Assembly (NCBI GenBank): GCA_937960435.1
Contig: CALGPN010000002.1
Coordinates: 82,640 to 146,639, forward strand
From: an uncultured Desulfosoma sp.
GTDB taxonomy: Bacteria > Desulfobacterota > Syntrophobacteria > Syntrophobacterales > DSM-9756
Direction of reading: 5' to 3'
DNA: 64,000 nt
The translations under genes and the position numbers were made by a program. Of the stretch, positions 2,555 through 27,405 are shown piece after piece; position 1 is the stretch's first letter; each line of letters opens with the position of its first letter. The notes below the pieces were generated by a model. That model did no database searches. It was not told the origin of the DNA and worked only from the letters and a program-made list of their open reading frames with translations.

Positions 2555-2618
2555 AGGCGACATCCTTTTACGAGCGGGTCACGCGCCCCATGTTCCAAAT
2601 CTTTCACCGGCGCCGGGG

Positions 2619-3131: not shown

Positions 3132-3145
3132 GATCGACTCTCCAT

Positions 3146-3577: not shown

Positions 3578-3652
3578 AATATCTCAGACTCCCTCCATCC
3601 CTGAGACCAAAAGCCTCTTGCGGAAATTGGCTCTTTGAGCCTTGGCCCGATC

Positions 3653-7647: not shown

Positions 7648-7719
7648 CAAGAATCATTTCACATGTTCTTGTGCCACCCTTCCCCATGGAAAGGGCCCGA
7701 GAGGCTGGAGGAAGAGCTC

Positions 7720-8142: not shown

Positions 8143-8410
8143 AAGGGTTTCGGACGGTACCCATAAGCCCTTCCGGCCTTAGAGCGGGCCCCTGTGGAGA
8201 ATGGACCGTTCACGTGAGACACTGGGGATTTTGGAATCCTAGGCCGGGGCCGCGACAGGTCGAGAAGGCGTTGGGGCGACCGGATGAGCGGGGATCCGGG
8301 CGATCCGGACCGCAAGCCCGTGCGTCCTCAAGGGGATAAGCGAAAGACGAAGCCGTTTTGGCGATGGTCTTTTCACGCGCACAGCGGGGAATCGAAAAAG
8401 GCGCTCTCCA

Positions 8411-9635: not shown

Positions 9636-10106
9636 ATGGAACAGATTCTTCAGGACGTGGATGCGGTCATCGATCAATGGGGCGCCAAGCCGGAATCCCT
9701 CCTTCAGATCATGTTGGACGTGAACCACAAGTTCAACTATCTGCCGAAGGAGAGCCTGCTGAGGATTTCCGAACGGCTGCGGATGCCCATCAGCCAAGTT
9801 TACAGCGTAGCCAATTTCTTCAAAGTGTTCAGCTTGACGCCTCGTGGGCGCACGATGGTCCAGGTGTGTACGGGCACGGCCTGCCATGTGAAGGGGACGC
9901 CGAAGCTTTTGGACCGCATGCGGCAAGACCTGGGTTTGGAGCCGGGACAGACCACGGAAGATTTGGCCCTCACGTTGGAAACGGTCAACTGTGTGGGGGC
10001 ATGCGCTTCGGCTCCGGTGGTGGTCGTCAGTGGAGAGACCTACAGTGAAATGACCCCGAACAAGATGGCGGCGCTGATCAAAGAAATCAAAGCCAAGAGC
10101 GCGTAG
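9636..10106 (+). CDS. nuoE: NADH-quinone oxidoreductase subunit E, [2Fe-2S] (NuoE/HndA type)
   Basis: 156 aa. ATG at 9636 follows GGAGG by 9 nt; the longer track start is not supported. A helical N-terminal part (ILQDVDAVIDQWG...SQVYSVANFFKVF) precedes a thioredoxin-like domain with four cysteines, CTGTACHVKG and CVGACASAP, that bind cluster N1a. NuoE docks on NuoF in the NADH-oxidising arm. First gene of the nuo operon; nuoF follows after 10 bp. Confidence 0.95.
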   Translation: MEQILQDVDAVIDQWGAKPESLLQIMLDVNHKFNYLPKESLLRISERLRMPISQVYSVANFFKVFSLTPRGRTMVQVCTGTACHVKGTPKLLDRMRQDLGLEPGQTTEDLALTLETVNCVGACASAPVVVVSGETYSEMTPNKMAALIKEIKAKSA

Positions 10107-10116
10107 GTGGAAAACC

Positions 10117-11970
10117 ATGAAGCGGCTCACGAGCATTCAAGATCTGGACGCGTTGCGGCAACAAATTCTCGAAAAGCGCAAACATATTCGCAAGCGCATC
10201 CGCGTCTGCAACGGAACGGGATGCCATTCCCAGGGCAGCCAAAAGCTTGTGGATGCCTTCGAAAAGTTCTTGGAGGAAAAAGGGATCACACGCGAATACA
10301 TGGTGGTTCCCACCGGGTGCAATGGGTTTTGTGCCGCCGGTCCCATAGTGGTCATTGAGCCCGAGGAGGTTTTCTACCAGAAGGTGAAACTCGACCGGGT
10401 CGCGGAGATTGTGGAACGCAGTGTTCTCGGTGGGGAGGTCATCGAGGACCTCCTCTATGTGGATCCTACGACGGGAAACCGCATCGTCCACGAGTACGAA
10501 ATCCCGTTTTTCGCCAAGCAGCAGCGGATTGTTTTCAAAGACACGGGCAGCAATTTCGTTCGGGACATCGAGGATTACATTTCCCGCGGGGGCTATTCGG
10601 CCTTGGCCAAGGTCCTCTCCGGCATGAGCCCTGAGCAGGTCATCGAGGAAGTAAAGATATCGGGACTCCGCGGGCGAGGCGGGGGTGGGTTTCCCACGGG
10701 CGTCAAGTGGGAATCCTGCCGGAGGGCGCACGGGGACATCAAATACGTCATGTGCAACGCCGACGAAGGGGACCCCGGCGCCTATATGGACCGTTCGCTT
10801 TTGGAAGGCAATCCCCACCAAGTGCTGGAAGGCATGATCATCGGGGGGTACGCCATCGGGGCCAGGGAAGGCTACATTTACGTTCGGTTTGAATACCCCA
10901 TGGCCGTGGAAAACGCCATCTGGGCCATCCACCAGGCCAAGGAATACGGCCTGCTCGGGGAAAACATCCTGGGCACCGACTTCAGTTTGGACATCCACGT
11001 GAACCGCGGCGCCGGAGCCTTCATCTGCGGGGAATCTACGGCGCTTATGGCCTCTTTGGAAGGAAAGATCGGCGAACCCCGCGGCAAGCATATCCACACG
11101 GTGGAAAAAGGGTTGTGGAACCGGCCGAGCAATTTGAACAACGTGGAAACCTGGGCCAATGTGCCGTTGATCATCAACAACGGCGGCGCCTGGTACGCCT
11201 CCATCGGCACGGAGCGAAGCAAAGGAACCAAAATCTTCTCCCTGGTGGGCAAGATCAACAACACGGGTTTGGTGGAAGTGGCGATGGGGACGCCGCTGCG
11301 CACCATCATCGAAGACATCGGCGGCGGTATCCCGGGGGGGAAGAAGTTCAAGGCCGTCCAGACGGGCGGTCCGTCGGGAGGCTGTGTGCCGGAGCGGCTC
11401 ATCGATTTGCCTGTGGATTTCGAACGGCTCAAGGAAGCCGGATCCATGATGGGCTCGGGCGGCATGATCGTCATGGACGAAGTGACCTGCATGGTGGATG
11501 TGGCCCGCTACTTCCTGAACTTCCTGGTGGAAGAATCCTGCGGCAAGTGCATTCCCTGCCGGGTGGGTGTCAAGCGCATGCACGAGCTCGTGGTGGACAT
11601 GTGCGAGGGGCGGGGCACGCCGGAGCACCTCACCAAGCTGGAAGAGCTTTGTCACGCCATTGAGGAGACGGCGCTCTGCGGTCTGGGGAAAAGCGCACCC
11701 AACCCCGTTTTGAGCACCTTGAAATATTTTCGGGACGAATATGAAGCCCACGTCTACGAAAAGAAGTGTCCGGCCAAGATCTGCAAGCCTTTGATCCAAT
11801 ACGTCATCGACGTGGACAAGTGCACCGGCTGCGGCGCGTGCCGTCGGCGCTGCCCGGAAAACGCCATCATCGGCGTCAACAAGGAATGCCATGTGATCGA
11901 CGAGGAAGTGTGCGTCCGGTGCGGGATCTGTATTGAAACCTGTAAGTTCAAGGCCATTTATATCGAATAA
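10117..11970 (+). CDS. nuoF: NADH-quinone oxidoreductase subunit F, HndC-like long form
   Basis: 617 aa, far longer than the about 430-450 aa of ordinary NuoF. Domains: N-terminal thioredoxin-like [2Fe-2S] (about 25-110, CNGTGCHSQG and GCNGFCAAGP), FMN/NADH domain (RGRGGGGFPTGVKWE; CNADEGDPGAYMDR), SLBB domain, four-Cys N3 cluster domain (ESCGKCIPCRVG), and a C-terminal tandem 2[4Fe-4S] ferredoxin (CTGCGACRRRCP; CVRCGICIETCK). This build occurs in NADP/NAD-reducing hydrogenases and NADH-dependent ferredoxin oxidoreductases. It oxidises NADH; the extra clusters could pass electrons to a soluble carrier. Between nuoE and nuoA, so it serves complex I. Confidence 0.95.
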   Translation: MKRLTSIQDLDALRQQILEKRKHIRKRIRVCNGTGCHSQGSQKLVDAFEKFLEEKGITREYMVVPTGCNGFCAAGPIVVIEPEEVFYQKVKLDRVAEIVERSVLGGEVIEDLLYVDPTTGNRIVHEYEIPFFAKQQRIVFKDTGSNFVRDIEDYISRGGYSALAKVLSGMSPEQVIEEVKISGLRGRGGGGFPTGVKWESCRRAHGDIKYVMCNADEGDPGAYMDRSLLEGNPHQVLEGMIIGGYAIGAREGYIYVRFEYPMAVENAIWAIHQAKEYGLLGENILGTDFSLDIHVNRGAGAFICGESTALMASLEGKIGEPRGKHIHTVEKGLWNRPSNLNNVETWANVPLIINNGGAWYASIGTERSKGTKIFSLVGKINNTGLVEVAMGTPLRTIIEDIGGGIPGGKKFKAVQTGGPSGGCVPERLIDLPVDFERLKEAGSMMGSGGMIVMDEVTCMVDVARYFLNFLVEESCGKCIPCRVGVKRMHELVVDMCEGRGTPEHLTKLEELCHAIEETALCGLGKSAPNPVLSTLKYFRDEYEAHVYEKKCPAKICKPLIQYVIDVDKCTGCGACRRRCPENAIIGVNKECHVIDEEVCVRCGICIETCKFKAIYIE

Positions 11971-11982: not shown

Positions 11983-12372
11983 ATGGTGCCGCAAGCCCTG
12001 CTCGGAGATTTCCTGGCCGTTGCCTTTTACCTTTTGGTCGGCGTGGTGTTCGCGGTCATTCCCATCATCATCTCCCACCTCATTGTGCCGCGAAGCGCGG
12101 GGCGCCGTCGCGACGAAACCTACGAAAGCGGCATGGAAACCATCGGGAGCGCCTGGATCCAGTTTACGGCCGCTTATTACATCTACGCGCTCATTTTCCT
12201 GGCCTTCGATGTGGACGTTCTCTACCTGTTCCCGGTGACCTTGGCCTACGGGCAGTATGCCATCCGCGATTTCATCGAGGTGTTTCTGTTCTTGGGCATT
12301 TTGTCCTTGGCAATTGTCTACGCGTGGCGAAAAGGAGTGTTTGAGTGGAAAACCAAAGAACAGAGCCGGTAA
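11983..12372 (+). CDS. nuoA: NADH-quinone oxidoreductase subunit A
   Basis: 129 aa inner-membrane protein with three predicted helices. The conserved block [20 protein letters not shown] between helix 1 and 2 and the acidic [13 protein letters not shown] of helix 2 are NuoA hallmarks. Its 3' end overlaps nuoB by 28 bp, indicating translational coupling. Confidence 0.96.
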
Positions 12373-12860
12373 TCCAGTTCGCCCTGCTGGAAGACCTCCT
12401 CAATCTGGCACGGGCCAATTCCCTCTGGCCCATGACCTTCGGGTTGGCGTGCTGCGCCATTGAGATGATGGCCGCCGGAGCGTCCCGGTTCGATTTGGAT
12501 CGGTTCGGCGCGGGTGTCTTCCGGCCTTCTCCGCGCCAATCGGACGTCATGATCGTCGCCGGGACGATTTCCAAGAAGATGGCTCCGGCCATCCAGATGC
12601 TCTGGGACCAGATGCCCAACCCCAAGTGGTGCATCGCCATGGGCAACTGCGCCATTTCCGGGGGCCCCTTCGAATACGACGGCCAGTACGCCATTGTTCC
12701 GGGAGCGGACCTGATCGTACCGGTGGACATCTATGTCCCGGGATGCCCGCCCCGGCCGGAAGGGCTCATCCAAGGCATTCTGGCTTTGGAAGACAAGATC
12801 ACCAAGGGGGAAAAGCGCAACGTGTTGCGCCGGTTCGCAAGACTGGAAAGGGTGGGCTGA
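12345..12860 (+). CDS. nuoB: NADH-quinone oxidoreductase subunit B (cluster N2)
   Basis: 171 aa, GTG start at 12345 with AAAGGAG 8 nt upstream, inside the nuoA end. Cluster N2 ligands are readable: the tandem cysteines in [12 protein letters not shown], then [10 protein letters not shown] and the [11 protein letters not shown] motif. NuoB carries the last iron-sulfur cluster that reduces quinone at the NuoB-NuoD interface. Confidence 0.97.
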
Positions 12861-12862
12861 TC

Positions 12863-13336
12863 ATGGCGGCGAAAGACGAGGCGCTGCAGCGCATTCGAGA
12901 ACTTCTCGGCGAAGGGGCGCTCACGGCGGATCCCGATTTCCGCACCGGGGTTTCCTGGACCATCACGTGTCCGAGGGAATCCCTCGTGGCCGTCATGCGC
13001 ATCTTCGAAGAATGCGGTTTCTACTTGGAATCGCTGACGGGTCTGGATTTTCAGGACACCTTGGAATTCGTCTATCACATGAACACTTACGAACCCAGGG
13101 CTCGCATGGCTGTTCGGGTTCTGTGCCCTCACGACGGGGAAATTCCGTCGGTGTCGGGGGTGTTCTCTTCGGCCCTGTGGCAGGAACGCGAAGCGTGGGA
13201 GTTTTTCGGTGTGCGCTTTTCCGGGCATCCGGACCTAAGGCACCTCCTGCTTCCGGAAGACGCGGATTTTCACCCGCTCCGCAAAGACTTCGGCACGGTT
13301 CACGCTTACCGCAAACGGGAAGAGGTTTATGGCTGA
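12863..13336 (+). CDS. nuoC: NADH-quinone oxidoreductase subunit C
   Basis: 157 aa from ATG 12863, two bases after the nuoB stop; the longer track start reads through nuoB. Family motifs are SALWQEREAWEFFGVRFSGH and the C-terminal LLPEDADFHPLRKDF. NuoC is a hydrophilic subunit joining NuoB and NuoD; here it is separate, not fused to NuoD as in E. coli. Overlaps nuoD by 8 bp. Confidence 0.95.
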   Translation: MAAKDEALQRIRELLGEGALTADPDFRTGVSWTITCPRESLVAVMRIFEECGFYLESLTGLDFQDTLEFVYHMNTYEPRARMAVRVLCPHDGEIPSVSGVFSSALWQEREAWEFFGVRFSGHPDLRHLLLPEDADFHPLRKDFGTVHAYRKREEVYG

Positions 13337-14450
13337 ATACTTTCCTCAACCGGCGCAACAGCAGATCTACAGTCTGAACCTGGGGCCCCAGCACCCGAGC
13401 ACCCACGGGGTCTTGCGAGTGCTTCTCACTCTGGACGGCGAATATGTCCTGGAGGCGGACCCCATCATCGGCTACGGGCATCGCGGCCACGAAAAGATGG
13501 GGGAGAACCGCACCTACCTCCAGTTTATGCCCAACGCCAGTCGGATGGATTACCTCTCGGGGCTGCTCTACAACCATGGGTTCTGCCTGGCCGTGGAAAA
13601 GCTGGCAGGGATCGATCCTCCTGAGCGGGCCAAGTACATCCGGGTCATTTGCGCCGAACTCAACCGCATTTCCAGCCACCTCTTGTGGTTCGGCACGTTC
13701 CTCATGGATTTGGGCGCCTTCACCCCGTTTCTGTACTGTTTCGACGATCGCGAAAACATCCTGGACATTCTGGACCGGGTGAGCGGTTCGCGGCTGACCT
13801 ATAGTTATTGCCGGTTCGGCGGGGTGTCCCGCGATGTGGATGAGGTGTTTGTCGAGCAGACCCGTGCCTTCATCAAAAGGCTGCGCAGCCGTTGGCCGGA
13901 CTACCACAATTTGGTGACGAAAAACGTCATCTTTATCCATCGCGTGCGCGATGTGGGCATCATCGACAAGGATCTGGCCCGGCGGTTCGGGGTGACCGGC
14001 CCGAACCTGCGCGCGGCCGGCGTCGCCTTCGACATGCGGAAGGTGGAGCCCTACGAGGTCTACGATCGGTTCGACTTCGAAATCCCCACGGGCACCAAAG
14101 GCGACGCCCTGGACCGGTACCGGGTGAGGCTGGAGGAAATGGAACAGAGCTGCCGCATCATCGAACAGGCGCTGGACCAAATGCCGGCGGGGCCGTACCG
14201 GCAGGAACGGGTGCGGCTCAAAGTCAAGCCGCCACGCGGGGAAGTGTATTTCGCCTTTGAAAGCGCCCGCGGTCAGACGGCCTATTACCTGGTGAGCGAC
14301 GGCAGTCCCTATCCGTATCGGGTTCATGTGCGGGTACCCAGCTTCGGGAACCTCCACTGCCTGACCGATGTCCTGAAAGAAACGCTCGTGGCCGATGCCA
14401 TCGCCATTTTGGGCAGCATCGATATCGTTGTGCCGGAAATCGACCGTTAG
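13329..14450 (+). CDS. nuoD: NADH-quinone oxidoreductase subunit D (quinone site)
   Basis: 373 aa. The N-terminal SLNLGPQHPSTHGVLRVLL holds the quinone-proximal histidines, and YCRFGGVSRDVD and SDGSPYPYRVHVRVPSF are conserved NuoD segments derived from the NiFe-hydrogenase large subunit. Slightly shorter than the usual 390-420 aa. GAGG precedes the ATG within nuoC. A 69 bp gap follows before nuoH. Confidence 0.97.
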   Translation: MAEYFPQPAQQQIYSLNLGPQHPSTHGVLRVLLTLDGEYVLEADPIIGYGHRGHEKMGENRTYLQFMPNASRMDYLSGLLYNHGFCLAVEKLAGIDPPERAKYIRVICAELNRISSHLLWFGTFLMDLGAFTPFLYCFDDRENILDILDRVSGSRLTYSYCRFGGVSRDVDEVFVEQTRAFIKRLRSRWPDYHNLVTKNVIFIHRVRDVGIIDKDLARRFGVTGPNLRAAGVAFDMRKVEPYEVYDRFDFEIPTGTKGDALDRYRVRLEEMEQSCRIIEQALDQMPAGPYRQERVRLKVKPPRGEVYFAFESARGQTAYYLVSDGSPYPYRVHVRVPSFGNLHCLTDVLKETLVADAIAILGSIDIVVPEIDR

Positions 14451-14519
14451 GGAACCTTTTGGACACCCTCTCAAGGGATTGACGGACCGTGCCAACCCCT
14501 GCAAGGAGATCGTCCCGTC

Positions 14520-15509
14520 ATGATGGAAGCCGCCGCAACTTCGGGTGCCTACTGGCTTAGGCTCATTATCGGCCTGGTCATCGTCTTGATTTTCAGCCAG
14601 CTCAATGCGCTTTTTCTCGTGTGGCTGGAGCGGAAAGTGGCCGGGCATATTCAAGTCCGGCTTGGCCCTATGGAAGTGGGTCCGCACGGACTGCTCCAGA
14701 CCATCGTGGACGGCATCAAGCTGGTGGGAAAAGAACTCATCACGCCGGCGCGGGCTGACCGCATCCTTTTCGTCATTGCCCCCGTGCTCGTTTTCACGCC
14801 GGTGTTGGTGGCGTTTCTGGTTTTGCCCTTCGGACCAGATCTCATCATCCGCGACATGAACGTGGGGCTCCTTCTCATCTTTGCCTTTTCCACGTTCAGC
14901 GTTCTGGCGATCCTCGTGGGCGGCTGGGCGTCCAACAACAAGTATGCCCTTTTGGGGGCCATTCGGTCCGTGGCCCAGGCGGTGGCGTATGAAATCCCGC
15001 TGCTCCTTTCGGTGATGAGCGTGGTGCTTATGGTCAATTCTTTCCGCTTCAGCGAACTGGTCATGGCGCAGCAACGCGTGTGGTTCGTGTTCCTGCAGCC
15101 CGTGGCGGCCCTCATCTACTTCATCTGTGCCACGGCGGAAACGAACAGGGCGCCTTTCGACATCCCGGAAGCGGAGTCGGAACTGGTGGCGGGATTCCAC
15201 ACGGAATACAGCGGCATGCGCTTCGGCCTCTTTTTCCTGGCGGAATACACCAACATGTTCATTGTGTGCGCCGTGGCCACAAGCCTCTTTTTCGGCGGCT
15301 GGCACGGCCCGTTCGGGTTCAGTTTCAAGATCCCCGGGGTGGTCTGGTTCTTGGCCAAAACCTACGTCCTCCTTTACGTCCTCATGTGGTTTCGATGGAC
15401 GTTCCCCCGGGTGCGCTTCGATCAGCTCATGAATTTTTCATGGAAGGTGCTCATCCCCTTGAGCATGCTCAACCTGGTGATCACAGCCCTGGTGCTGAAG
15501 CTGATCTAG
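14520..15509 (+). CDS. nuoH: NADH-quinone oxidoreductase subunit H
   Basis: 329 aa with about eight membrane helices. The quinone-chamber loop [24 protein letters not shown] is the NuoH/Nqo8 signature, and [20 protein letters not shown] is the conserved loop after helix 1. GGAG lies upstream of the ATG at 14520. It links quinone reduction to the proton-pumping membrane arm. Confidence 0.97.
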
Positions 15510-15613
15510 AGGGCATCGCGCCGGAGAATGGAATCCTCTCTCTTCGGTGCTGGGGGTGAGGGGGGGCGGAGCGATGATCCAATGAACAAACGAGACGGAG
15601 TCAAAGGGCGGCT

Positions 15614-16054
15614 ATGGGATACTGGAAAGACATTGTCGTAGGGGGCTGGAGCCTCATCGAAGGCATGAAAGTGACGGGCCGGGCGCTCTTCAAGCCTGTC
15701 GTCACGGTGCAGTACCCTCGAAAACATCTGGAGATGTCCCCGGCGTACCGCGGGCACATTGAGCTGAAGATTTTTCCGGAAACGGGCACCCACGGGTGCA
15801 TCGCCTGCGGCACATGCCAAAGAGTGTGCCCGTCGGGGGTGATCAAGGTTCAGGGGGTCAAGAGCCATGCCCGCAGCGGCAAGGTGGCCACACATTACGT
15901 GATCGACTATACGCGCTGCAGCCTCTGTGGGCTGTGTGTGGAAAGCTGCCCGACCCAAACCCTGAAGTTTTCCACGGAATATGAACTGGCTGGCGATTCC
16001 CGGTGGGACGGCGTGGTGGATTTGGTCGCGAGGATGGAGGACAGCCGATCATGA
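15614..16054 (+). CDS. nuoI: NADH-quinone oxidoreductase subunit I, 2[4Fe-4S]
   Basis: 146 aa, a little short for the family. Two ferredoxin motifs, CIACGTCQRVCP and CSLCGLCVESCP, bind clusters N6a and N6b. The N-terminal amphipathic part (VVGGWSLIEGMKVTGRALF) lies on the membrane. AAAGGG precedes the ATG. Overlaps nuoJ by 4 bp (ATGA). Confidence 0.96.
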   Translation: MGYWKDIVVGGWSLIEGMKVTGRALFKPVVTVQYPRKHLEMSPAYRGHIELKIFPETGTHGCIACGTCQRVCPSGVIKVQGVKSHARSGKVATHYVIDYTRCSLCGLCVESCPTQTLKFSTEYELAGDSRWDGVVDLVARMEDSRS

Positions 16055-16578
16055 GCGGAAGTTTCGTCATCGACAGTCTGGCCCACGCGGTTTTTTGGGT
16101 CGTGGTGGGGATCGTGTTTGCCGGGGCCGCCTTGGCGGTTTTTCCGCGAAATATCGTCTACAACGTCTTGGGCCTCATCCTTTGCTTGACCGGTGTCGCG
16201 GCGCTTTTTCTCTACCTGGGAAGTTTCTTCCTGGCTTTGATGCAGCTTTTGATCTACGTGGGAGCCATCTGCATCGCCATCGTCTTCGCCATTATGCTGT
16301 CCCGCCCCTTGCATTTGGAAGTGCCGAAAAGACGCATGCCCAAGCTGGCGGCCGGCATTGGGGCGGCGTCGATTTTCTTTGCGGCCATCGGCGCCGTGGC
16401 GTGGAAAACCGCATGGAAGCCGGCGGCCGAGCGCGGAGCGGATTGGACCATCACGACCATCGGCCATTTGCTCCTGACGCGTTATGCTCTGGTCTTTGAA
16501 GTCATCTCCCTGGTGCTGCTGGTGGCCATCATCGGCGCCATTTTGACCACAGGATTCAGCCGGAGGTTGTCTTCGTGA
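16051..16578 (+). CDS. nuoJ: NADH-quinone oxidoreductase subunit J
   Basis: 175 aa from ATG 16051, which overlaps the nuoI stop; the track start at 16003 is inside nuoI. About five membrane helices, with the conserved third-helix region LMQLLIYVGAICIAIVFAIML that contains the pi-bulge helix of NuoJ. GAGGA upstream. Overlaps nuoK as GTGA. Confidence 0.95.
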   Translation: MSGSFVIDSLAHAVFWVVVGIVFAGAALAVFPRNIVYNVLGLILCLTGVAALFLYLGSFFLALMQLLIYVGAICIAIVFAIMLSRPLHLEVPKRRMPKLAAGIGAASIFFAAIGAVAWKTAWKPAAERGADWTITTIGHLLLTRYALVFEVISLVLLVAIIGAILTTGFSRRLSS

Positions 16579-16883
16579 ATTCGCTCAGCGTGTATTTGAC
16601 CGTCGCGGCGGTGTTGTTCAGCCTGGGTCTTTTCGGGGTGCTCATGCGCCGAAACCTCATCGGCATGCTCATTTCCATCGAACTCATGCTCAACGGCGCG
16701 AACCTCAACTTTATGGCCTTCAACCGCTTCTTGGCGCCCGAGCCGGCCGTGGGGCAGATCATGGCGCTGTTCATTATGGGAATTGCGGCGGCGGAAGCGG
16801 CCATCGGGCTGAGCATCATCCTGGCCCTGTTCCGGCGGCTGCGCTCCATCAACGTGGAAAGGGCGCAGCGTCTGCGGGGTTGA
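16575..16883 (+). CDS. nuoK: NADH-quinone oxidoreductase subunit K
   Basis: 102 aa, three helices, GTG start overlapping the nuoJ stop. The helix with LIGMLISIELMLNGANLNFM carries the conserved glutamate of the proton channel, and IMGIAAAEAAIGLSIIL the second. Mrp-like antiporter subunit. Confidence 0.96.
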   Translation: MNSLSVYLTVAAVLFSLGLFGVLMRRNLIGMLISIELMLNGANLNFMAFNRFLAPEPAVGQIMALFIMGIAAAEAAIGLSIILALFRRLRSINVERAQRLRG

Positions 16884-16952
16884 GGCTCCATGCCTGTGCA
16901 GGTTGGTGGTGTGTTTGTCATCCGTAACTTCAGCGTGTGAAGGACGATGTCC

Positions 16953-18890
16953 ATGATGTGGCTACCGCACGATCCTGTTTTGAGCGCGGCTTTGGCCTGT
17001 GCCACCCTGCCGTTTCTGTCCATGGCGGTGATCCTCATCTTTACCCGACCGTATCAGAGGCTTTCCTGCGCCATTTCGGTGGGGGCCATCACGGTGTGCT
17101 TGGGGTGCGCCCTGTATCTTTTGATCACGCTGCGCCACGCGCCGGCTCCCGTGGAATACCAATGGGCTTGGATCGTCTCCAGCGACATGGTCATCCCCTT
17201 TGGGTTCCTGCTGGACCGGCTGAGCCTGCTCATGCTGACCATCGTGGCCGTCATCAGTTTTCTGGTGCAGGTGTACTCCATCGGTTACATGCATGGGGAT
17301 CCCGGCTTCAGCCGCTACTACGCCTTCCAGTCCCTGTTCGCCTGGGCCATGATGACCATGGTCATCGCCCCGGGGATGCTGCAACTTTACATCTTCTGGG
17401 AATTGGTGGGGCTCGCGTCTTACCTCTTGATCGGCTACTACTATGAAAAATGGAGCGCTTCCCAGGCGGGCAAGAAGGCCTTCGTCATGACCCGCCTCGG
17501 CGACATCGGTTTCTTCCTTGGCATCATCACGGTGCTTTTAGGTTTCGGGGACTTGGGAATCCTGCACATGAACCACGCGGCCCAAGCCGGGGATATCCAC
17601 CCAGCCGTGGTGACCTTGGGCGCGATTTTGATCTTTTGCGGTGTGGTGGGAAAGAGCGCCCAGTTTCCGCTGCTCACATGGTTGCCCGACGCCATGGAAG
17701 GCCCGACCCCGGTGAGCGCGCTGCTCCATTCGGCGACCATGGTCGCCGCGGGCGTCTACCTCATGAGCCGCATCTTCCCCTTCTTTGCCGCTTCTCCTGA
17801 CGCCATGGCCGTCGCCCTCATCATCGGCACCATCACCATGCTGTTGGCGTCCACCATGGCTTTTGTGACCTACGACATCAAGCAGGTGTGGGCCTATTCC
17901 ACCGTGAGTCAGTTGGGGTTTATGGTCATGAGCCTGGCGGCGGGCGGGTACTTCGCCGGCGTGTTTCACCTCACCACCCACGCGGGGTTCAAGGCCTTAT
18001 TGTTCTTGTGCTCCGGTATCTTCATCCATGAGTACCACACCAACGATATGCGTGAGATCGGGCGGGGCGGGGGCCGAAAGCTCACCATTCCCATGATCTG
18101 TATGACGGTCGGGGCGCTGGCCTTGGCGGGCATTTTCCCCTTTTCGGGCTTCTTCAGTAAGGAAGCCATCCTCGGGGTGCTGGCCGAACATCCCAACAAG
18201 CTGTTTCTGGGCGCGGGCCTTTTGGGGGCGGCCATGACCGCTTACTACAGCTTCCGGCTCATCTTCTTTATCCTCTTCCCGCGATCGACGGCCGAAGAGG
18301 CTTCTCATCATGAAGAAGCCCACGGCCACGGGGACGATCACGGCGGGGGGCATCACGGCCATGTGTTTTGGGCCATGGCTTGGCCCGTCATGATCCTCGC
18401 GACCGTGACGCTGGTGCTGGGCTTTTTCCAAAACGAACTGCAAAGTTACCTTCTGGCGCTGGAACCTGCGAGTCATGGACATGAAGCGGTCGAGCACGGC
18501 GGCCACGGCGTGGGGCACTATCTGCTGCTCGTCACGGCGGTATGCCTCGCGGTGGGCGGCGTCTTTTTCGCCTATCTGGAATTCGGCTGGAAGAAAGCGA
18601 CCCAGGAAGGTTTTCTGCGGAAATTTCCCGCTGTGGAAACCCTCTTTGCCAATCGCTGGTACATGGACCATTTCTACCGCAAGGCGTTGGATCTGCTTGT
18701 CTATTGCGGGTTCACCAACGTCTTTACCCGGAACGACCGGCGGGTGATCGACGGCGGCATTGACGGCATCTGCCGGTTCACGGTGGGGGGCGGCCGTGCC
18801 GTGAGCTTCTTGCAGTCCGGGATGCTTCAATACAATTTGGTCCTCATGGTGGCTGCCGTGGGGGTCCTGGTTCTGGTCTTCGCCTTGTAA
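16953..18890 (+). CDS. nuoL: NADH-quinone oxidoreductase subunit L (antiporter-like)
   Basis: 645 aa. ATG 16953 is preferred over 16947 because AAGGA is 8 nt upstream. Antiporter core motifs are FQSLFAWAMMTMVIAPGMLQLYIFWELVGLASYLLIG and TWLPDAMEGPTPVSALLHSATMV. The C-terminal part supplies the long lateral helix. An internal loop is histidine-rich (HHEEAHGHGDDHGGGHHGH), as often seen in NuoL of this kind. Proton pumping subunit at the distal end of the membrane arm. Confidence 0.97.
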   Translation: MMWLPHDPVLSAALACATLPFLSMAVILIFTRPYQRLSCAISVGAITVCLGCALYLLITLRHAPAPVEYQWAWIVSSDMVIPFGFLLDRLSLLMLTIVAVISFLVQVYSIGYMHGDPGFSRYYAFQSLFAWAMMTMVIAPGMLQLYIFWELVGLASYLLIGYYYEKWSASQAGKKAFVMTRLGDIGFFLGIITVLLGFGDLGILHMNHAAQAGDIHPAVVTLGAILIFCGVVGKSAQFPLLTWLPDAMEGPTPVSALLHSATMVAAGVYLMSRIFPFFAASPDAMAVALIIGTITMLLASTMAFVTYDIKQVWAYSTVSQLGFMVMSLAAGGYFAGVFHLTTHAGFKALLFLCSGIFIHEYHTNDMREIGRGGGRKLTIPMICMTVGALALAGIFPFSGFFSKEAILGVLAEHPNKLFLGAGLLGAAMTAYYSFRLIFFILFPRSTAEEASHHEEAHGHGDDHGGGHHGHVFWAMAWPVMILATVTLVLGFFQNELQSYLLALEPASHGHEAVEHGGHGVGHYLLLVTAVCLAVGGVFFAYLEFGWKKATQEGFLRKFPAVETLFANRWYMDHFYRKALDLLVYCGFTNVFTRNDRRVIDGGIDGICRFTVGGGRAVSFLQSGMLQYNLVLMVAAVGVLVLVFAL

Positions 18891-18963
18891 GGGTTCCGAC
18901 GGGGCCCGAAGGCTGCGGTGACGGACGAAGCGAAGGGAACGTTTAAACGCGAGTGGGCATGCT

Positions 18964-20439
18964 ATGACAGCCATGGAATTTGCGCAGTTTCCGATCCTGT
19001 CGGCAATCCTCTTTTCCACACTGCTGGCTCTGCTGGTCATCCTCTTTATCCCCGATGACCGCCCCAAGCTGGTCAAGCAGGTGAGTCTGGGGTTTGCCGC
19101 CGTAGGCCTGGCGCTCAGCCTGTATGTGTACTTCGCTTATGACCCGCACAAGGGCGGGTTGCAGTTCGTGGAGCGGGTGCTTTGGGTGAAAAGCCTGGGG
19201 ATCTACTACTTCCTCGCCGCGGACGGCATCAACGTCCCCATGATCCTTCTGACCGCCGTCGTGCTCTTTACGGGCGTGCTGACCATGTGGGAATTGGATA
19301 AGCGGGTCAAAGAATACTTCGCGCTGACCTACCTTTTGGTGGCGGGCGTCTACGGCGTCTTTATGAGCATGGACCTGTTTTTCATCTTTGTGTGGTATGA
19401 CGTCTCCCTCTTCCCCATGTACCCGCTCATCGCCATCTGGGGGAGCACGCGCAAAGAATACGGCGCCATGAAGCTCACCTTGTACCTGCTGGCCGGAAGC
19501 GCCTTGATCCTGCCGGGGATTTTGTACCTGTGGGCCGTGGCCGGGGGGACGACCTTCGATCTTTTCGAGCTGCAACGGCTCGGCTTCGACGTTCAGGTGC
19601 AGCGCATCGCTTTCGTCATGCTCTATCTGGGCTTCGGGATTCTCGCCGGTGTGTGGCCGTTCCACACATGGTCTCCGGTGGGCCACGTGGCGGCGCCGAC
19701 GGCCGTGAGCATGATCCACGCTGGAGTGCTCATGAAACTGGGCGCTTACGGCATCCTGCGGGTGGGCATGACGCTGTGCCCCGAGGGGCTTGTCTATTGG
19801 GCCGATCTCATGGCGCTTTTGGCCACCATCGGGATCGTCTACGGGGCCTTTGTGGGGCTGGCTCAAACGGACCTCAAATACGTCATCGGTTATTCCAGCG
19901 TCTCTCACATGGGCATCGTGGGCCTCGGGCTGTCCACTTTGACCGTGGATGGCATCAACGGCGCCGTTTTCCAAATGTTTTCCCACGGCATCATGACGGC
20001 CCTATTCTTTTCCGCCGTGGGCTACATCTACGACAAGACCCACACGAAGATGATCCCAGAACTGGGGGGCCTGTCCAAGACCATGCCCAAGGCGTCGGCC
20101 TTTTTTATCTTGGCCGCTTTTTGCGGGATCGGGGTACCGTGCATGAGCAGCTTCTGGGCGGAACTGCTGGTGTTCATCTCTGCGGTGAAGACGTACCCCT
20201 TACGAGGCATCCTGGCGGTTTCGGGTCTGGTGGTGAGCGCGCTGTTCATGCTGCGGGTGGTGCAGAAGACGTTCTACGGGGAAAAGAACCCCAAGTGGGA
20301 GCACATTCCCGATGTGCCGCTCTTTTTAGCCTCTCCGCGCATCATCCTGGTGGGCATCTTGATTTTTTACGGTCTTTTCCCAAGGCTCATTTTGGACATC
20401 ATTCAAAGTGCCGTGGTTCCTTTCGTGAACAGCCTGTAG
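18964..20439 (+). CDS. nuoM: NADH-quinone oxidoreductase subunit M (antiporter-like)
   Basis: 491 aa, about 14 helices. Conserved antiporter phrases: [21 protein letters not shown] (helix with the key acidic region), [36 protein letters not shown] and [13 protein letters not shown]. Separated from nuoL by 73 bp. Confidence 0.97.
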
Positions 20440-20461
20440 CGAGACGAGGGATGATTTGGTC

Positions 20462-21883
20462 ATGATGAAATGGACCCTGTTTACCCCCGAATTGTACTAT
20501 GTGGCCGTTGCGTCCGTGTTCTTCCTCTGTTCCCTTGAGAAGAAGGCGGACCCCAGGCGTCTGTATCGCTGGGCGGTGATCCTGGCGGGTGTGGGGCTGG
20601 CGGTGACCGTGGCTTGCGCCCGCATGGAGGGGTTCCTGTTTTTCGACTCCTACAAGGTGGATCTCTTCAGCCAGGTCTTCAAGATTTTTCTGGCCCTGGG
20701 AATGTTCTTCGTCACCATGGTCTGTAGCGAGCTCTATGGGATCGAACCGAGAAAGCACGCCGAGTTTTATTTCCTTCTTTCCATCTGCACCCTGGCCATG
20801 ATGATGCTGGTGAGCGCCGTGGAACTGCTGACCATCTACATCGCCCTGGAACTGTCGTCGTACTCACTGTACCTGCTGGTTCCCATGCGACATCGGGCCG
20901 ACGAATACGTGGAGACGGGGATCAAGTATTTCATGGTGGGCGCGACGGCCTCGGCGCTCATGATTTTCGGCATGAGCTATCTTTTCGGTATCACGCACAC
21001 TACCTACGTGGCGGACATCATTCGTAAGCTTCCGGAGGTCTTGAACCAGCCGGCGGCCGTGGTGGGCCTCTTGCTGGCCTTGGGGGGCTTTTTCTTCAAA
21101 CAGGCCCTCTTTCCCTTCCACATCTGGGCGCCGGACGTCTACCAAGGGGCGGCCAATCAAGTGACGACCTACATCGCGACGGCCTCCAAGATGGCCGCCG
21201 CCGCCATGGTGATCCGATTTGTGGGAATGAGCACGGGTCAATCGGAGGTGTTCATTCAGGTTCTGGTGGCTTTGTCCATCCTCTCCATGACCTTCGGGAA
21301 CCTGGTGGCCATCGTCCAAAAAGACATCAAACGCTTGCTGGCCTATTCCAGTATCGCCCATGCAGGCTACATGCTCATCGGGATCCTGTGCATGACCCAG
21401 CGGGGTTATTCCAGCGCGGTTTATTATGCGCTGGCGTATTTGGTTATGAATTTTGCCTGCTTCATGGTCATCATCAAGGTGGCGCCGGACGGACACAATT
21501 TGCAGATCAAGGAACTGGCGGGGTTGCATAAGCGCTCGCCCCTATTGGCCATGACCTTGATGCTGGCCCTTTTCGGGCTGGCGGGCATCCCGCCCACGCT
21601 TGGCTTTACGGGCAAGTTTCTGGTTTTCGCCGCGGCTTTGGAAAAGGGATACCTCATGTTGGTCATTATCGGCATGATCAACGCGACCATATCGCTCTAC
21701 TACTATCTCATCGTCATCAAGGCGGCCTATCTGCTGGAACCCGTGCGGGAATATGGCCCGGTTCGGGTGGATCCGTGGACACGGGTGATGAGCGCCGCTC
21801 TCGTCATCGCCATGGTCTATGTGGGCATCTTTCCTGATCGTTTCGTGGCCCTTGCGGAGGCCGCCGTTTCGGTTCTACCTTAG
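20462..21883 (+). CDS. nuoN: NADH-quinone oxidoreductase subunit N (antiporter-like)
   Basis: 473 aa from ATG 20462; the TTG at 20456 is an alternative with poorer spacing. Motifs: [37 protein letters not shown] and [16 protein letters not shown]. Third Mrp-like proton-pumping subunit. Followed after 41 bp by the truncated NuoF paralogue. Confidence 0.97.
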
Positions 21884-21924: not shown

Positions 21925-22806
21925 ATGCTGGAACGGCTTAGGGATCTCAGGCAAGACATTGAAGAAAAAGTCCTGGGCACTGTGCGGTCTGCGGTGAAGC
22001 GTGCGGTTCCTTCACCGAAGGAGCCGGAGCCAACGACACGGCCTATCGGGCAATCTTTTTGCGACCTGCAGTCGAAAAAAGCGTGCCTGACCGTGTGCGC
22101 GCCCCGAGGCGAATGCGAGTGCGAGGGCCCGGCGCTCAAAGAAGCGCTGGAAAAGGCTCTGGCGGAGGCCGGGCTGTCCATCGCGGTGGGGGAAGCGAAG
22201 ACGGGCTGTTCGGGTCGGTGTGAACTCGGGCCTTTTATTGGCTTTCCCCAAAAGGGCTTCTTTTACCTGAAGGTCGCCCCGGAGGCGGCCCGGGAGGTGG
22301 TGCGTGAAACCGTGCAGCGGGGTCGGCTGCTGTTTCCCTATCTTTCCGTCAGCCCGGACCGGTCCTATCGGACGGACATCCTTTACGATCGTTTCAGCGG
22401 GCTTCTCGCTGCCATCGATGACACGGTCTGCATGGTGGAAGTGGCTCGGTACTTCTTGGCCTTCGAGGAAGGGCTTTCCTGCGGCAAATGTGTTCCATGC
22501 CGGCTGGGAATCAAGAGGATTGAAGAGGCTCTGGATCGGATCGTGGCCGGAGAAGGCACGATGGACGATTTGGAACAGATCGGGATCCTCTGCGAGACCC
22601 TGATTTACGCGCCCCATTGCCAATTCGCCATGGCAAGCACAAAGCCTGTGCTCAGTGCCGTCACCTATTTCCGGGATGAATTTATCGAACATATTGAAAA
22701 GAAAGAATGCCGCGCCGGGGTGTGCCCGGCTTTGGTCGAGATCCAAAAGAAGAAAGCTTTTCGTGAACGGATGGCCGAGGCGGCGAAGAAGAAAAAGAAG
22801 AAATGA
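21925..22806 (+). CDS. Truncated NuoF paralogue: thioredoxin-like [2Fe-2S] plus N3-cluster domain, no FMN/NADH domain
   Basis: 293 aa, found between nuoN and nuoG. Residues about 50-140 are a thioredoxin-like ferredoxin domain (KKACLTVCAPRGECECEG; TGCSGRCELGPFIGF). Residues about 165-270 match the C-terminal iron-sulfur domain of NuoF: SCGKCVPCRLGIKR with Cys186, 189 and 192 and a fourth Cys232. The whole FMN/NADH and SLBB region of a real NuoF is absent, as are the tandem ferredoxins of the long NuoF in this operon. It ends in a lysine-rich tail (AKKKKKK). It cannot oxidise NADH itself. A role as an electron wire, an adaptor between NuoF and NuoG, or an alternative input module is inferred from position only. 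Confidence 0.85.
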   Translation: MLERLRDLRQDIEEKVLGTVRSAVKRAVPSPKEPEPTTRPIGQSFCDLQSKKACLTVCAPRGECECEGPALKEALEKALAEAGLSIAVGEAKTGCSGRCELGPFIGFPQKGFFYLKVAPEAAREVVRETVQRGRLLFPYLSVSPDRSYRTDILYDRFSGLLAAIDDTVCMVEVARYFLAFEEGLSCGKCVPCRLGIKRIEEALDRIVAGEGTMDDLEQIGILCETLIYAPHCQFAMASTKPVLSAVTYFRDEFIEHIEKKECRAGVCPALVEIQKKKAFRERMAEAAKKKKKK

Positions 22807-22917
22807 AGCCGGTGCGAGCCAAATCCATCGCACCGGACACTCGAAAGTCGGAGCGGCCGTGGCCGCGATTTCGCAGGAACGTGCTCCCGCGCGTTCGAGA
22901 GAAGAGGGATGGGACAT

Positions 22918-25233
22918 ATGGCGACGATCACGTTAAAGATCAATGGCCAAGAAGTGCAGGTGGAAGAGGGGGCGACCATTCTCGATGCAGCGAAGAAGGC
23001 CGGGGTTTATATCCCCACGCTGTGTTACCATCCTTATCTGCCGCTGGAAGAAGCCTGCCGTATTTGTGTCGTGGAAGACGTCCGCCGGGGCTGGTCCACC
23101 TTGGTGGCTGCCTGCGTTTTTCCGGCCCGCCAAGGGATGGTCATTGAAACGGATTCGGAAAAGGTTCAGGAATCGCGCAAGACCATCCTCGAACTCTTGT
23201 TGTCGGATCATCCCAATGCCTGCATGACCTGCCAGGCGACGGGGGATTGCGAACTGCAGGACTTGGCTTACCGCTTCCGCGTCAAGGCCGACGCGTACCC
23301 GGGGGAACGGCACAAGCATCCGGTGGATTCGGATCCCAACCCCTATCTCCATATCGACATGAACAAGTGCGTCCTCTGTCGGCGGTGCATTCGAGCGTGC
23401 CACGATGTCCAAGGGGCGGACATTTGGACCAAGGTAGGTCGGGGTTTCGAACAGCGCATTTCCACGGCCTTCGAACTCCCGCTTCAGGAGGCCGGCTGTG
23501 AATTTTGCGGCCATTGCGCCGACTTTTGCCCGGTGGATGCCATCGGCTTTCGATCGGGCCGCTATGAAATGCGGGCATGGCAACTCCAAAAAGGCACGAC
23601 CATCTGCCTCCAGTGCCCCATGGGCTGCGGCGCCGTCTATGACACCTATAAGGGCAAAGTGGTGACGGTCCACGGGGATTTCAAGGCGCCGTCCAACACG
23701 GGTGCTTTGTGTAAGGTGGGTCGGTTCAACTACAATTTCGTGAACACGCCGGACCGGCTGCAGACAGCCTACGTCCGAGACGGCTCAGGCGATCACGCCC
23801 CGACCACCGTGGATGCGGCGCTGGATACGGCCGCGGCGAAACTCGCCGAAATCGTGGAAAAACACGGCGGTGCGGCGGTGGGCGTTTTGGCCGGCGGGAT
23901 GCTCACCAACGAAGAATACTACCTGCTGCAGAAACTGGCCCGCGGTGCGCTCAAGACAAACAATGTGGACAACGTGGCCGGGCCTTGGCAGTTGCCGCTC
24001 TATGAAGGCTTAAGCAGCAGCCTCGGCTGGGGGGCCATGACGAATCCTTTGGACGACATCGCTCTGGCCAAGAGCCTCCTGGTGCTGGGATCCAACACCT
24101 TGGAAAAACACGCCATCGCGGCCCTTCGAGCCCGAAAGGCCGTGCGGAACGGCGCGGTGATGATTGTGGCGCATCCGGATCGGGTGGCGCTGACGAAGAA
24201 CGCCGAAAAACACCTGGCCATCCAGCCGGGTTCCGAATCCAGCCTGCTGTGCGGCTTTCTCAAGGTGATCGTCTCGGAAAAGCTTTTTGACGCCGCCTTT
24301 GTGGAAAAACACACCCAGGAATTCGACAAGCTCGAACGAAGCCTGGAAAAAATCACCCTCAAGGATGTGGCCGAACGGACGGGCCTCACCGAAGAGGCTA
24401 TCCAGGACGCCGCACGGCTCTACGCTTCCAAACGGCCGAGTTTCCTCATCTACGGTGCGGACATGGCCCAGGAACCCGCCAACGAATCCCTGTACCGCAT
24501 GGGGGCCGCCCTGCAGATGCTCTTGGGCAGTGTGGGTGTGCCCGGAGGCGGCTTTGCGGCCATGGGGGTGAGCGGAAACGCCCAAGGGGCCGCGGATTTT
24601 GGGGCGTGGCCCAAGTATTTGCCCGGGTATCGAAGCGTCTCCCAGGCAGCTGCCCGAAAGACCGTAAGCAACCTTTGGGGGGTGGAAGTGCCCGGTGAGG
24701 GCGGGTTGAGTTGGCCGCAGATGTTCGAAGCCATCGAAAAGGGAGAGCTGAAAGCCCTGTATGTGGTCGGGGTGAATCCCTTTGAATTGGGGCTGCCGGA
24801 ACGGGCGGTGGAAAGCGCTCTGGCGAAACTCCAACTGCTCGTCGTTCAGGATTGCTCGAAAACCAAGGCGGCCGATTACGCCCATGTGGTGCTTCCCGGG
24901 GCCGCCTTCATGGAAAAGGACGGAACGGCCGTCAACTGCGAACGCCGCGTGCAGAAATTGACCGCGGTCATGGCCCCTTTGGGGGATGCCCGGGCCGACT
25001 TCGACCTTATCCAAGGACTCCTTGGGCGGCTGAAGGCGGATCTCGCTCCGGCGGACCGCGCCCAAGCCTTTGACGAAGCCGTGCAGCTCATCAAAGACAT
25101 GGGCCCCCTGCGCTACGCCGCTCTGGGTGAAAAAGGGCCGTGCTGGCCGATCCGGGAAGACGGCTCGGGCACGGATCGGCTTCCCCTTTCCGAAGACAAA
25201 CCCTCGCTGAAATTCTTCGCCGCCCGCCTCTAA
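22918..25233 (+). CDS. nuoG: NADH-quinone oxidoreductase subunit G (molybdopterin-type)
   Basis: 771 aa; ATG 22918 has GAGGG 9-10 nt upstream, while the track start at 22909 is directly on it. Domains: [2Fe-2S] plant-type ferredoxin (CYHPYLPLEEACRICVVE), the HxxxCxxC cluster region (DHPNACMTCQATGDCELQ), a 2[4Fe-4S] ferredoxin (CVLCRRCIRACHDVQ; CEFCGHCADFCPVDA), then a molybdopterin-oxidoreductase-like body starting CLQCPMGCGAVYDTYKG. NuoG passes electrons from NuoF/E to NuoI. Being last in the operon, far from nuoE/F, is unusual. Ends near two hairpins. Confidence 0.95.
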   Translation: MATITLKINGQEVQVEEGATILDAAKKAGVYIPTLCYHPYLPLEEACRICVVEDVRRGWSTLVAACVFPARQGMVIETDSEKVQESRKTILELLLSDHPNACMTCQATGDCELQDLAYRFRVKADAYPGERHKHPVDSDPNPYLHIDMNKCVLCRRCIRACHDVQGADIWTKVGRGFEQRISTAFELPLQEAGCEFCGHCADFCPVDAIGFRSGRYEMRAWQLQKGTTICLQCPMGCGAVYDTYKGKVVTVHGDFKAPSNTGALCKVGRFNYNFVNTPDRLQTAYVRDGSGDHAPTTVDAALDTAAAKLAEIVEKHGGAAVGVLAGGMLTNEEYYLLQKLARGALKTNNVDNVAGPWQLPLYEGLSSSLGWGAMTNPLDDIALAKSLLVLGSNTLEKHAIAALRARKAVRNGAVMIVAHPDRVALTKNAEKHLAIQPGSESSLLCGFLKVIVSEKLFDAAFVEKHTQEFDKLERSLEKITLKDVAERTGLTEEAIQDAARLYASKRPSFLIYGADMAQEPANESLYRMGAALQMLLGSVGVPGGGFAAMGVSGNAQGAADFGAWPKYLPGYRSVSQAAARKTVSNLWGVEVPGEGGLSWPQMFEAIEKGELKALYVVGVNPFELGLPERAVESALAKLQLLVVQDCSKTKAADYAHVVLPGAAFMEKDGTAVNCERRVQKLTAVMAPLGDARADFDLIQGLLGRLKADLAPADRAQAFDEAVQLIKDMGPLRYAALGEKGPCWPIREDGSGTDRLPLSEDKPSLKFFAARL

Positions 25234-25647: not shown

Positions 25648-26058
25648 ATGATCGCCCAAGACATTCGACGGATTCAGCGTCTAGGTCATTTTAATAAGGC
25701 ACTGAGTCAATTGACAAAATTTATTGATAAGGGAAAATTGAACGAACTCGAAAAACATGGGTTAATACAGGCTTTTGAGTATACCTATGAACTTTACTGG
25801 AACACTTTAAAGGATTATTTTGAAGGTCAAGGACAAACGAACATTCATGGCAGCAGAGACGCGATCCTCCTCGCTTGTCGGCGCGGCCTGATCGAAGATG
25901 GCGAGACCTGGATGGATATGATGAAAAGGAGAACCCTGACCAGCCACACCTACAACGAAGATGTTGCCGAGCATATTGCCGGAAAAATTATCAACCTTTA
26001 CTTCTCGGAGTTTCTAAGGCTGAAAACCAAAATGGAATCATTGAAAGAGGTGTTCTGA
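25648..26058 (+). CDS. HEPN-type nucleotidyltransferase substrate-binding protein (HI0074 family)
   Basis: 136 aa, all-helical. Family phrases: LEKHGLIQAFEYTYELYWNTLKDYFE, SRDAILLACRRGLIEDGETWMDM and RTLTSHTYNE. The last holds an RX4HXY signature (R-TLTS-H-T-Y), the HEPN RNase-type motif. HI0074 proteins normally pair with a small MNT nucleotidyltransferase encoded next door; here that partner (26061-26288) lacks its catalytic region. The gene is visibly AT-richer than its neighbours, which suggests acquisition. Toxin activity is inferred from the motif, not shown. Confidence 0.88.
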   Translation: MIAQDIRRIQRLGHFNKALSQLTKFIDKGKLNELEKHGLIQAFEYTYELYWNTLKDYFEGQGQTNIHGSRDAILLACRRGLIEDGETWMDMMKRRTLTSHTYNEDVAEHIAGKIINLYFSEFLRLKTKMESLKEVF

Positions 26059-26060
26059 CA

Positions 26061-26288
26061 TTGCGCCTCGGCTTGAAAGAACACTCCATCCGAAAAATTT
26101 GTGCTGTTCTTGCGCGCTATCCCCAAGTGGATCAAGCGATTTTATTGGGTGAGATCGATGATTTGCTTTTGCCTTATACTTTCGATTTATCTATTTTTCA
26201 CCAGATCCGCGACCCCGATGTTCTAGACCATATCCAACGCGTGGGCAAAGTGTTCTACGAGAAAGCTGCAGAAAAGACCTTAGGGTGA
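26061..26288 (+). pseudogene. MNT nucleotidyltransferase with in-frame deletion of catalytic core
   Basis: A 75-codon frame, TTG start at 26061 with AGAGG upstream, two bases after the HEPN stop. The N-terminal part (GLKEHSIRKICAVLARYPQVDQAILLG) and C-terminal part (EIDDLLLPYTFDLSIFHQIRDPDVLDHIQRVG) both match MntA/HI0073-type proteins. The block that should lie between them, with FGSRAKG and the SDIDL metal-binding aspartates, is missing and LLG joins directly to EID. The frame is kept, so a shortened product of about 75 aa could still be made, but it cannot be an active nucleotidyltransferase. The track start at 25875 lies within the preceding gene and is rejected. Confidence 0.8.
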
Positions 26289-26777
26289 TCCCTAGCTTAG
26301 GCGTCTCACGGTGCCGCCATCCACCGATGGAGGAAGCGGCCTTGAGTTTAGGCCCGTGCGGCCTTTTTCGAGAATCCCAAGAGGAACCGAGAATAAAGGG
26401 TTCGTTTATTCCCCCCGGCAGCGGATGGGCCTTTGCTCATGGGGTACTGAGGCGTGATTCGGCCTGCGCCGCTCGTTAGGATTTTGAAATGACCGCCTCT
26501 AACCTTACGGTCTGAGATAGCATAGAGTGTCTTCAAATCATGGACCTTTTGTCCGAGCAACGCGCTGACCTTCCCTCCATCGCAGTGGCAAAATGCCATA
26601 GAGCTTTGTGGACCTATGGGAAACTTTCAACCTCCTTCTAGGCTTGGACGGAGAAAAGCTCAAGGTGTAAAGTAAAAACTAGTGGACTTCTCTTTACTGC
26701 CGCGGGCCTCGGGCAAGGGGCGCACGGTCGCTCCATGCTTTTCCACCTCAAGGCTTTTTTCGGGCATGGAGGTTTAT
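26289..26777. other. Non-coding spacer between the two HEPN/MNT pairs, carrying direct repeat copy 1
   Basis: 489 bp. Apart from the repeat at 26319-26432 no convincing gene is present. The 83-codon minus-strand frame at 26348-26599 overlaps the repeat and is not preserved in the second repeat copy because of an indel, so it is not believed. Confidence 0.5.
26319..26432. repeat. Direct repeat, copy 1 (114 bp)
   Basis: Starts ATCCACCGATGGAGGAAGCG and ends GCAGCGGATGGGCCT. Matches 27596-27708 over its length, with the first about 63 bp identical and the rest carrying scattered substitutions and one indel in a C-run. It contains AGGCCCGTGCGGCCT followed by TTTT, a small terminator-like hairpin. 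Confidence 0.9.
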
Positions 26778-27080
26778 ATGAGTCGGCAAGTGGATATTCC
26801 CAAAGACAAGATTGCCCATTTTTGCCGCCGCAACCATATCCGCTCTCTGTCGCTCTTCGGTTCGGCTTTGCATGGCGACCTTCGCCCGGATAGCGACATA
26901 GACATTCTGGTCGAGTTCAGTCCGGAGCACACCCCCGGCTTGCTTGGTATGGCGCGCCTTGAACGAGAATTATCGCTCCTGCTGGGGCGCCGGGTCGACC
27001 TGCGCACGCCTGAAGACTTGAGCCGCCGTTTTCGTAAACAAGTGCTCGAAGAAGCGGAGGTGTACTATGCGCAAGGGTGA
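26778..27080 (+). CDS. mntA: MntA-type minimal nucleotidyltransferase antitoxin
   Basis: 100 aa. ATG 26778 follows GGAGG by 6-7 nt; the track start 32 codons earlier is not supported. The catalytic motif is complete: [20 protein letters not shown] (GSxxxG...DxD). In characterised MntA-HepT pairs this enzyme AMPylates a tyrosine of the HEPN toxin. Overlaps hepT by 14 bp, so the pair is translationally coupled. Bracketed, with hepT, by the two direct repeats. Confidence 0.92.
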
Positions 27081-27405
27081 TGCCTTCCGCCTCCGGCACA
27101 TGCTGGATGCGGCGTGTGAGGCGGTCTCATTCGCCCGAGGGAGGAGGCGTGCTGATCTCGATCAAGACCGAATGCTGGTATTAGCGTTGGTTAAGGACAT
27201 CGAAATCATCGGCGAGGCCGCTTGCCAAGTCTCGCCGGCAACCCGTGGTCAACTTCCACATATTCCGTGGGAAGACATCATCGGCATGCGCCATCGGCTG
27301 GTGCATGGCTATTTTGACATCAACCTCAACGTTCTCTGGAAGACCATTGAGGAAGACCTGCCACCGCTCATTGCACTGCTCGAGCGGGAGGTCGCTGAGA
27401 AGTGA
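27067..27405 (+). CDS. hepT: HepT-type HEPN toxin (DUF86)
   Basis: 112 aa. DUF86 pattern: [14 protein letters not shown], then [21 protein letters not shown], giving RX4HXY (R-HRLV-H-G-Y) with the catalytic Arg/His of HEPN RNases and the tyrosine that MntA modifies. Directly downstream of and overlapping mntA. An intact, probably active toxin-antitoxin operon by motif; no experimental evidence here. Confidence 0.92.

Follow-up and report, generated by a model that had tools for sequence, protein, structure and literature searches.

A flavin-free NuoF/HydB-like iron–sulfur protein encoded with complex I in Desulfobacterota

The PF10589 cluster of HydABC, StnABC and complex I is an electron relay linking FMN with the NuoG-type subunit (PMC8880783, PMC10482914), and in the Stn transhydrogenase StnC passes electrons to StnB (PMC10482914), whose PF10589 domain is kept in the protein described here. 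A further Cys3His site is a Zn hinge in Thermotoga maritima HydB (PMC9499530) and the [2Fe-2S] cluster B2 in HydABCSL (PMC8880783), and is not conserved in the Thermus complex I subunit Nqo1 (PMC9499530). Anaerobes also contain an 11-subunit complex I whose electron donor is an acknowledged open question (PMC11238625). The window, by which we mean the whole stretch of 64,000 nucleotides analysed here, contains a complete operon for complex I in the order nuoE, nuoF, nuoA–D, nuoH–N, X, nuoG, where X is a gene for a NuoF/HydB-like protein in which no flavin domain is found (Table 1).

The full NuoF that the original prediction had placed in this operon is present, with FMN and SLBB domains by Pfam, and because it is of the HydB/Bfu type the complex falls within the predicted ‘Nuo-Bfu’ kind. 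X lies between nuoN and nuoG, as had been stated, separated from the nuoN stop by 41 bases and from nuoG by about 100; no sigma-70-type promoter match was found between these two flanking genes of the window, and nuoN, X and nuoG might, on weak evidence, share one transcript. Just upstream of nuoE and on the same strand, translations suggest a response regulator and a receiver–histidine kinase hybrid (7663–9511), while small open reading frames 3′ of nuoG (25648–27405) resemble by eye nucleotidyltransferase (MNT) and HEPN/DUF86-type pairs, possibly toxin–antitoxin modules. A second complex I operon lies in the same genome (L069, G000:C4:40000-56240); one of its products, of 654 aa, matches NuoE as well as NuoF, and a NuoG-like protein of 894 aa is encoded between nuoD and nuoH.

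Table 1. Features of the window's complex I operon and of X, in window positions
Feature	Position	Strand	Basis or remark
nuoE, thioredoxin-like [2Fe-2S], operon start	9636..10106	+	PF01257, 1.4e-44; start codon inferred
nuoF, bifurcating (Bfu/HydB) type	10117..11970	+	Pfam: N-terminal 2Fe-2S_thioredx, FMN, SLBB, PF10589, C-terminal 2x[4Fe-4S]
nuoA, B, C, D, H, I, J, K, L, M (with nuoN, the 11-gene core)	11983..20439	+	Open reading frames; order conserved in relatives
nuoN	20456..21883	+	Constant upstream neighbour of X, 38/41 loci
Gene X, flavin-free NuoF/HydB-like iron–sulfur protein	21925..22806	+	Open reading frame, ATG start, 293 aa
X, thioredoxin-like N-domain, residues 46-136	22060..22332	+	HydB N-domain match; strands and helices 54-131 in model
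X, third metal site, C169, H256, C262, C267	22429..22725	+	Alignment to 7t2r_B; near-invariance
X, PF10589 NADH_4Fe-4S domain, residues 172-256	22438..22692	+	Pfam 5.6e-24; Foldseek; ligand audit
X, C-terminal lysine run KKKKKK	22786..22803	+	Sequence
nuoG	22909..25233	+	Downstream neighbour; 2Fe-2S, NuoG 4Fe-4S, dicluster and Mo-type domains

Judged by its sequence, X is a NuoF/HydB subunit without the FMN/NADH, SLBB and C-terminal ferredoxin domains. The only Pfam domain found in it is PF10589; Complex1_51K (FMN/NADH-binding) and SLBB, both present in the window's NuoF, are absent by Pfam, and by Pfam and the structural model the C-terminal 2x[4Fe-4S] ferredoxin domain is absent as well, only a helix and the lysine tail following residue 267. 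The N-domain falls under the Pfam threshold, yet it matches that of the solved HydB 7t2r_B in phmmer (45 bits, i-E 9e-11) and that of the window's NuoF in BLASTP (44.7 bits, 32%), and both comparisons align the N-domain and the C-domain as separate blocks, the FMN part between them being absent from X. An AlphaFold2 model (mean pLDDT 76, pTM 0.52) consists of an N-terminal helix, a small α/β domain (54–131), a helical bundle (170–259) and a terminal helix; its input comprised many N-pieces and four C-pieces, and the placement of the two domains relative to each other is unreliable. Models from full-length and mixed alignments misplaced the N-domain and were not used. Foldseek aligns the modelled C-domain to StnB, HydB and NfnB over 112–113 columns at 1.5–1.9 Å. 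The domain content first proposed, a thioredoxin-like N-domain and PF10589 with neither FMN nor SLBB, is thus borne out by Pfam, phmmer, BLASTP and Foldseek, whereas the lysine tail holds for X of the window and is common in close families but is absent from the homologues of families f5, f6, f14 and f20.

Three metal sites are predicted in X, their occupancy by clusters being presumed from the ligands. The putative [2Fe-2S] ligands of the N-domain are C58, C64, C95 and C99 in the ligand audit; the motif had been given as C-x4-C, the spacing of bifurcating HydB/BfuB, but it reads C-x5-C-x-C, with C-x5-C in place of C-x4-C and with additional conserved cysteines at C46, C54 and C66. All four cysteines of the PF10589 site are present (C186, C189, C192 and C232), predicting an N3/B1-type [4Fe-4S] cluster. 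The third site is, by alignment, equivalent to the Zn/B2 hinge site of HydB; because Thermus Nqo1 does not conserve this site, the likely ancestor of X is a HydB/NuoF of the bifurcating type. All three ligand sets are intact in X of the window and in most of 45 homologues and, outside a few variants considered below, the ligands are near-invariant in both the alignment and the ligand audit.

The genomic surroundings of X were annotated at 41 loci, each from a different genome, with the Nuo proteins of the window as reference. X directly follows nuoN in 38 of them; two others have nuoF-X-nuoG (L044 and L182), and one ends at a contig edge. In L182, where the order is nuoN-nuoE-nuoF-X-nuoG, NuoF (1858–4968, 1036 aa) carries a C-terminal GltD-like Fer4_20/Pyr_redox_2 module. 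The proposal that this domain order should be sought next to nuoG in other Desulfobacterota found an answer in the window's family and part of family f3, where the arrangement is EF-ABCDHIJKLMN-X-G, but most loci have no nuoG there: part of f3, f5, f6 and part of f14 have nuoABCDHIJKLMN-X with no nuoEFG adjoining, and in part of f3, f6 and part of f14 the gene after X is usually on the opposite strand. With neither nuoF nor nuoG adjoining X at most loci, the suggested shunt between NuoF and NuoG is disfavoured as a general role; in many complex I operons that lack NuoF, X is the only NADH-module-like gene. X is optional, since the same 11 core genes occur without it in close relatives (genus g13, families f11 and f55); it is tied to the complex I core and not dependent on NuoF.

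X is patchily distributed and, among the phyla sampled, was found only in Desulfobacterota. A nuo-type X occurs in about 20 of 394 genomes of the phylum (nuoN is matched in 229 at the chosen cut-off); at E <= 1e-44 it was absent from 148, 199 and 151 genomes of three other phyla, samples for which Nitrospirae, Acidobacterium and Dehalococcoidia loci served as entry points and which contain no positive control, and a plasmid search gave no full-length match. The genome of the cultivated model Syntrophobacter fumaroxidans encodes X: for strain MPOB one NADH dehydrogenase is given as Sfum_0199-209, eleven genes (PMC3570798), and X would be the next gene after Sfum_0209. A divergent X-like protein with 28–29% identity is found outside nuo operons (L189 9651–10355, L190, L191), its neighbours being formate–THF ligase, FolD, a Prismane/CODH-family protein and a flavoprotein.

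We propose, with a probability of roughly 55%, that X is a flavin-free docking and electron-relay adaptor, an accessory subunit of the anaerobic, bifurcation-type complex I; its presence in the complex, its docking site, its donor and the direction of electron flow we infer from sequence. A relay adaptor is the simplest reading because X keeps the PF10589 relay domain but no flavin. A HydB/NuoF subunit would have lost its FMN/NADH, SLBB and C-terminal ferredoxin domains, leaving as X an electron-wire core of [2Fe-2S]-type N-domain, N3/B1-type [4Fe-4S] cluster and HydB Zn/B2 hinge site. X would most likely occupy the N-module end of the 11-subunit core, next to NuoG or, where present, a StnC-like NuoG, and would let donors other than NuoF's NADH/FMN feed the NuoG–NuoI–quinone chain. 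Candidate donors would be at the level of ferredoxin where X stands alone; where X is linked to a StnC-like protein, the candidate would be the GltD-type NAD(P)H dehydrogenase that this NuoG carries as a fusion. The iron–sulfur adaptor of the original prediction thus acquires a conserved, constrained family tied to complex I, often without NuoF, while its donor and docking stay at the level of a proposal. Several considerations speak against the adaptor: X is optional, some X proteins have lost a whole metal site, StnC-like proteins are also encoded where X is absent, and NuoF and X in the window would compete if they shared a single NuoG surface.

Alternatively, X might be mainly a structural or assembly subunit, capping the exposed NuoG/NuoI end of the hydrophilic arm or helping to attach NuoG, with clusters that were inherited from NuoF and are only sometimes redox-active. 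The main argument for such a partly structural role comes from the site-loss variants, each of which has lost one full site and kept the other site or sites, and in each of which X is retained at the same place in the operon: X of S. fumaroxidans (L050) has lost all four [4Fe-4S] cysteines of PF10589, L046 and L048 have lost all four Zn/B2 ligands together, and L055 has lost the cluster cysteines of the N-domain. Because some homologues have lost a whole site, not every metal site is required everywhere. Long acidic Pro/Ala-rich tails on the f3 variants of X that have no adjacent NuoEFG fit the same reading, as does the precedent of StnC, in which two clusters that lie outside the electron path are required solely for assembly (PMC10482914). 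However, the ligands are near-invariant elsewhere and none of the homologues examined has lost all three sites, and we consider a chiefly structural X unlikely, if worth keeping in view. The S. fumaroxidans protein (L050 9463–10968) has gained a long acidic tail as well as losing its PF10589 cysteines.

A special case of the adaptor reading is that X forms part of an exchangeable second N-module, NuoG with X or a StnC-like protein with X, so that one 11-subunit core would be served alternately by NuoEFG (NADH/ferredoxin) and by the X-based module. In three f20 genomes (L185, L187 and L188) X lies directly upstream of a StnC-like NuoG–GltD fusion, and in f5 genomes (L196, L198 and L247) a fusion of the same type is divergent to nuoA. 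These proteins, of 1171–1255 aa, are NuoG with an inserted GltD-like module of NAD(P)H dehydrogenase architecture, in the order Fer2 / Fer4_20–Pyr_redox_2 / dicluster / Mo-type, and with the 11-gene core they are candidates for an NAD(P)H-driven complex I. The window's genome itself encodes, besides NuoEFG and X, an orphan StnC-like NuoG–GltD protein (L239 10550–14212, G000:C45:19591-23133). Its gene follows those of a PAS histidine kinase and a response regulator; no StnA or StnB was found beside it, and contig C45 has no HydB-type match.

By a hand count over 44 genomes, uncorrected for kinship, a full-length (or contig-cut) non-Sec StnC-like protein is encoded in 23 of the 37 genomes with X and in none of the seven without. 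Against the exchangeable module, the StnC-like gene is unlinked to X in f1 and f3, where it stands elsewhere beside a histidine kinase gene and often also a response regulator gene; no StnC-like protein is encoded in five of the f3 genomes that have X; and StnC-like or Sec-formate-dehydrogenase homologues are many in genomes of other families that have no X. The two genes before the StnC-like gene in f1 and f3, at first suspected to encode HdrA and MvhD, are the histidine kinase and the response regulator. A universal partnership of X with StnC-like proteins is therefore not upheld, given linkage in f20 and f5, its absence or that of the partner elsewhere, and StnC-like proteins without X in other families; the association is suggestive only, and we hold the exchangeable module as a doubtful refinement of the adaptor.

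The remaining alternative turns on ancestry and constraint. Full-length orthologues of X are many among 60 relatives, are spread across several families and are all without FMN. In a tree of the PF10589 domain (118 columns, no outgroup root, inner forks weak), 44 X-type rows are parted from 30 NuoF rows by one branch with support of 99/96, recovered in 100% of bootstrap trees, a pattern with which a single origin of X may be reconciled, though it falls short of proof. The dN/dS of X between the window and two genomes of the same genus is 0.047–0.059, and between those two 0.076, values that are rough because dS is high; the nuoC pair of the window and G002, being out of frame, was left out of the comparison. 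X is under purifying selection, and the constraint is clear. That X is a decaying duplicate of NuoF, for which its missing catalytic domain might speak, or a local deletion under relaxed constraint, is rejected as scarcely credible in view of that single branch, the FMN-less orthologues in several families, dN/dS of about 0.05–0.08 and the conserved metal ligands.

We found no description of X in the literature searched, which consisted largely of open-access papers, and X is apparently an undescribed protein, a HydB/NuoF derivative that lacks the flavin domain and would serve as an accessory protein of complex I. It is a lineage-specific iron–sulfur protein lying exactly where a donor adaptor for the 11-subunit core would be expected. 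If X is such an adaptor, the flavin head of complex I would be swappable while the pump stays unchanged, and NADPH or ferredoxin may power the pump in sulfate reducers and syntrophs. A bolder version, which we offer only tentatively and do not favour, is that X represents a new input module for NuoF-less complex I, a HydB remnant without flavin that would couple either ferredoxin-level donors or, for NADPH, a StnC-like NuoG–GltD protein to the 11-subunit proton pump, so that Desulfobacterota would have a complex I driven by NADPH or ferredoxin.

Among described systems, HydB, BfuB and StnB (of T. maritima HydABC, A. mobile HydABCSL and S. ovata StnABC, respectively) share with X the thioredoxin-like N-domain, the PF10589 bundle and the Cys3His Zn/B2 site, and the C-domain of X has about 37–45% identity to the solved structures of HydB/StnB type; unlike X, they have FMN/NADH, SLBB and C-terminal 2x[4Fe-4S] domains, and the N-domain motif of X is altered and richer in cysteine. 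The StnC-like fusions of f20 and f5 share the domain order of StnC of the Stn transhydrogenase (PMC10482914), but whereas StnC stands with StnA and StnB, the fusions adjoin complex I core genes and X. The ‘Nuo-Bfu’ complex I (Schut et al. 2022, PMC9304861) resembles the window's operon in its Bfu-type NuoF, NuoE, NuoG and 11 core genes; in the parts of that account available to us it is a predicted complex of 14 subunits with no fifteenth gene described, and X is additional in the window. The 11-subunit complex I without NuoEFG, for example that of Desulfitobacterium (PMC11238625), has the same core, and many X loci are likewise without EFG; no common donor protein is reported to have been found for the 11-subunit type (PMC11238625), whereas these X loci end in a dedicated iron–sulfur protein.
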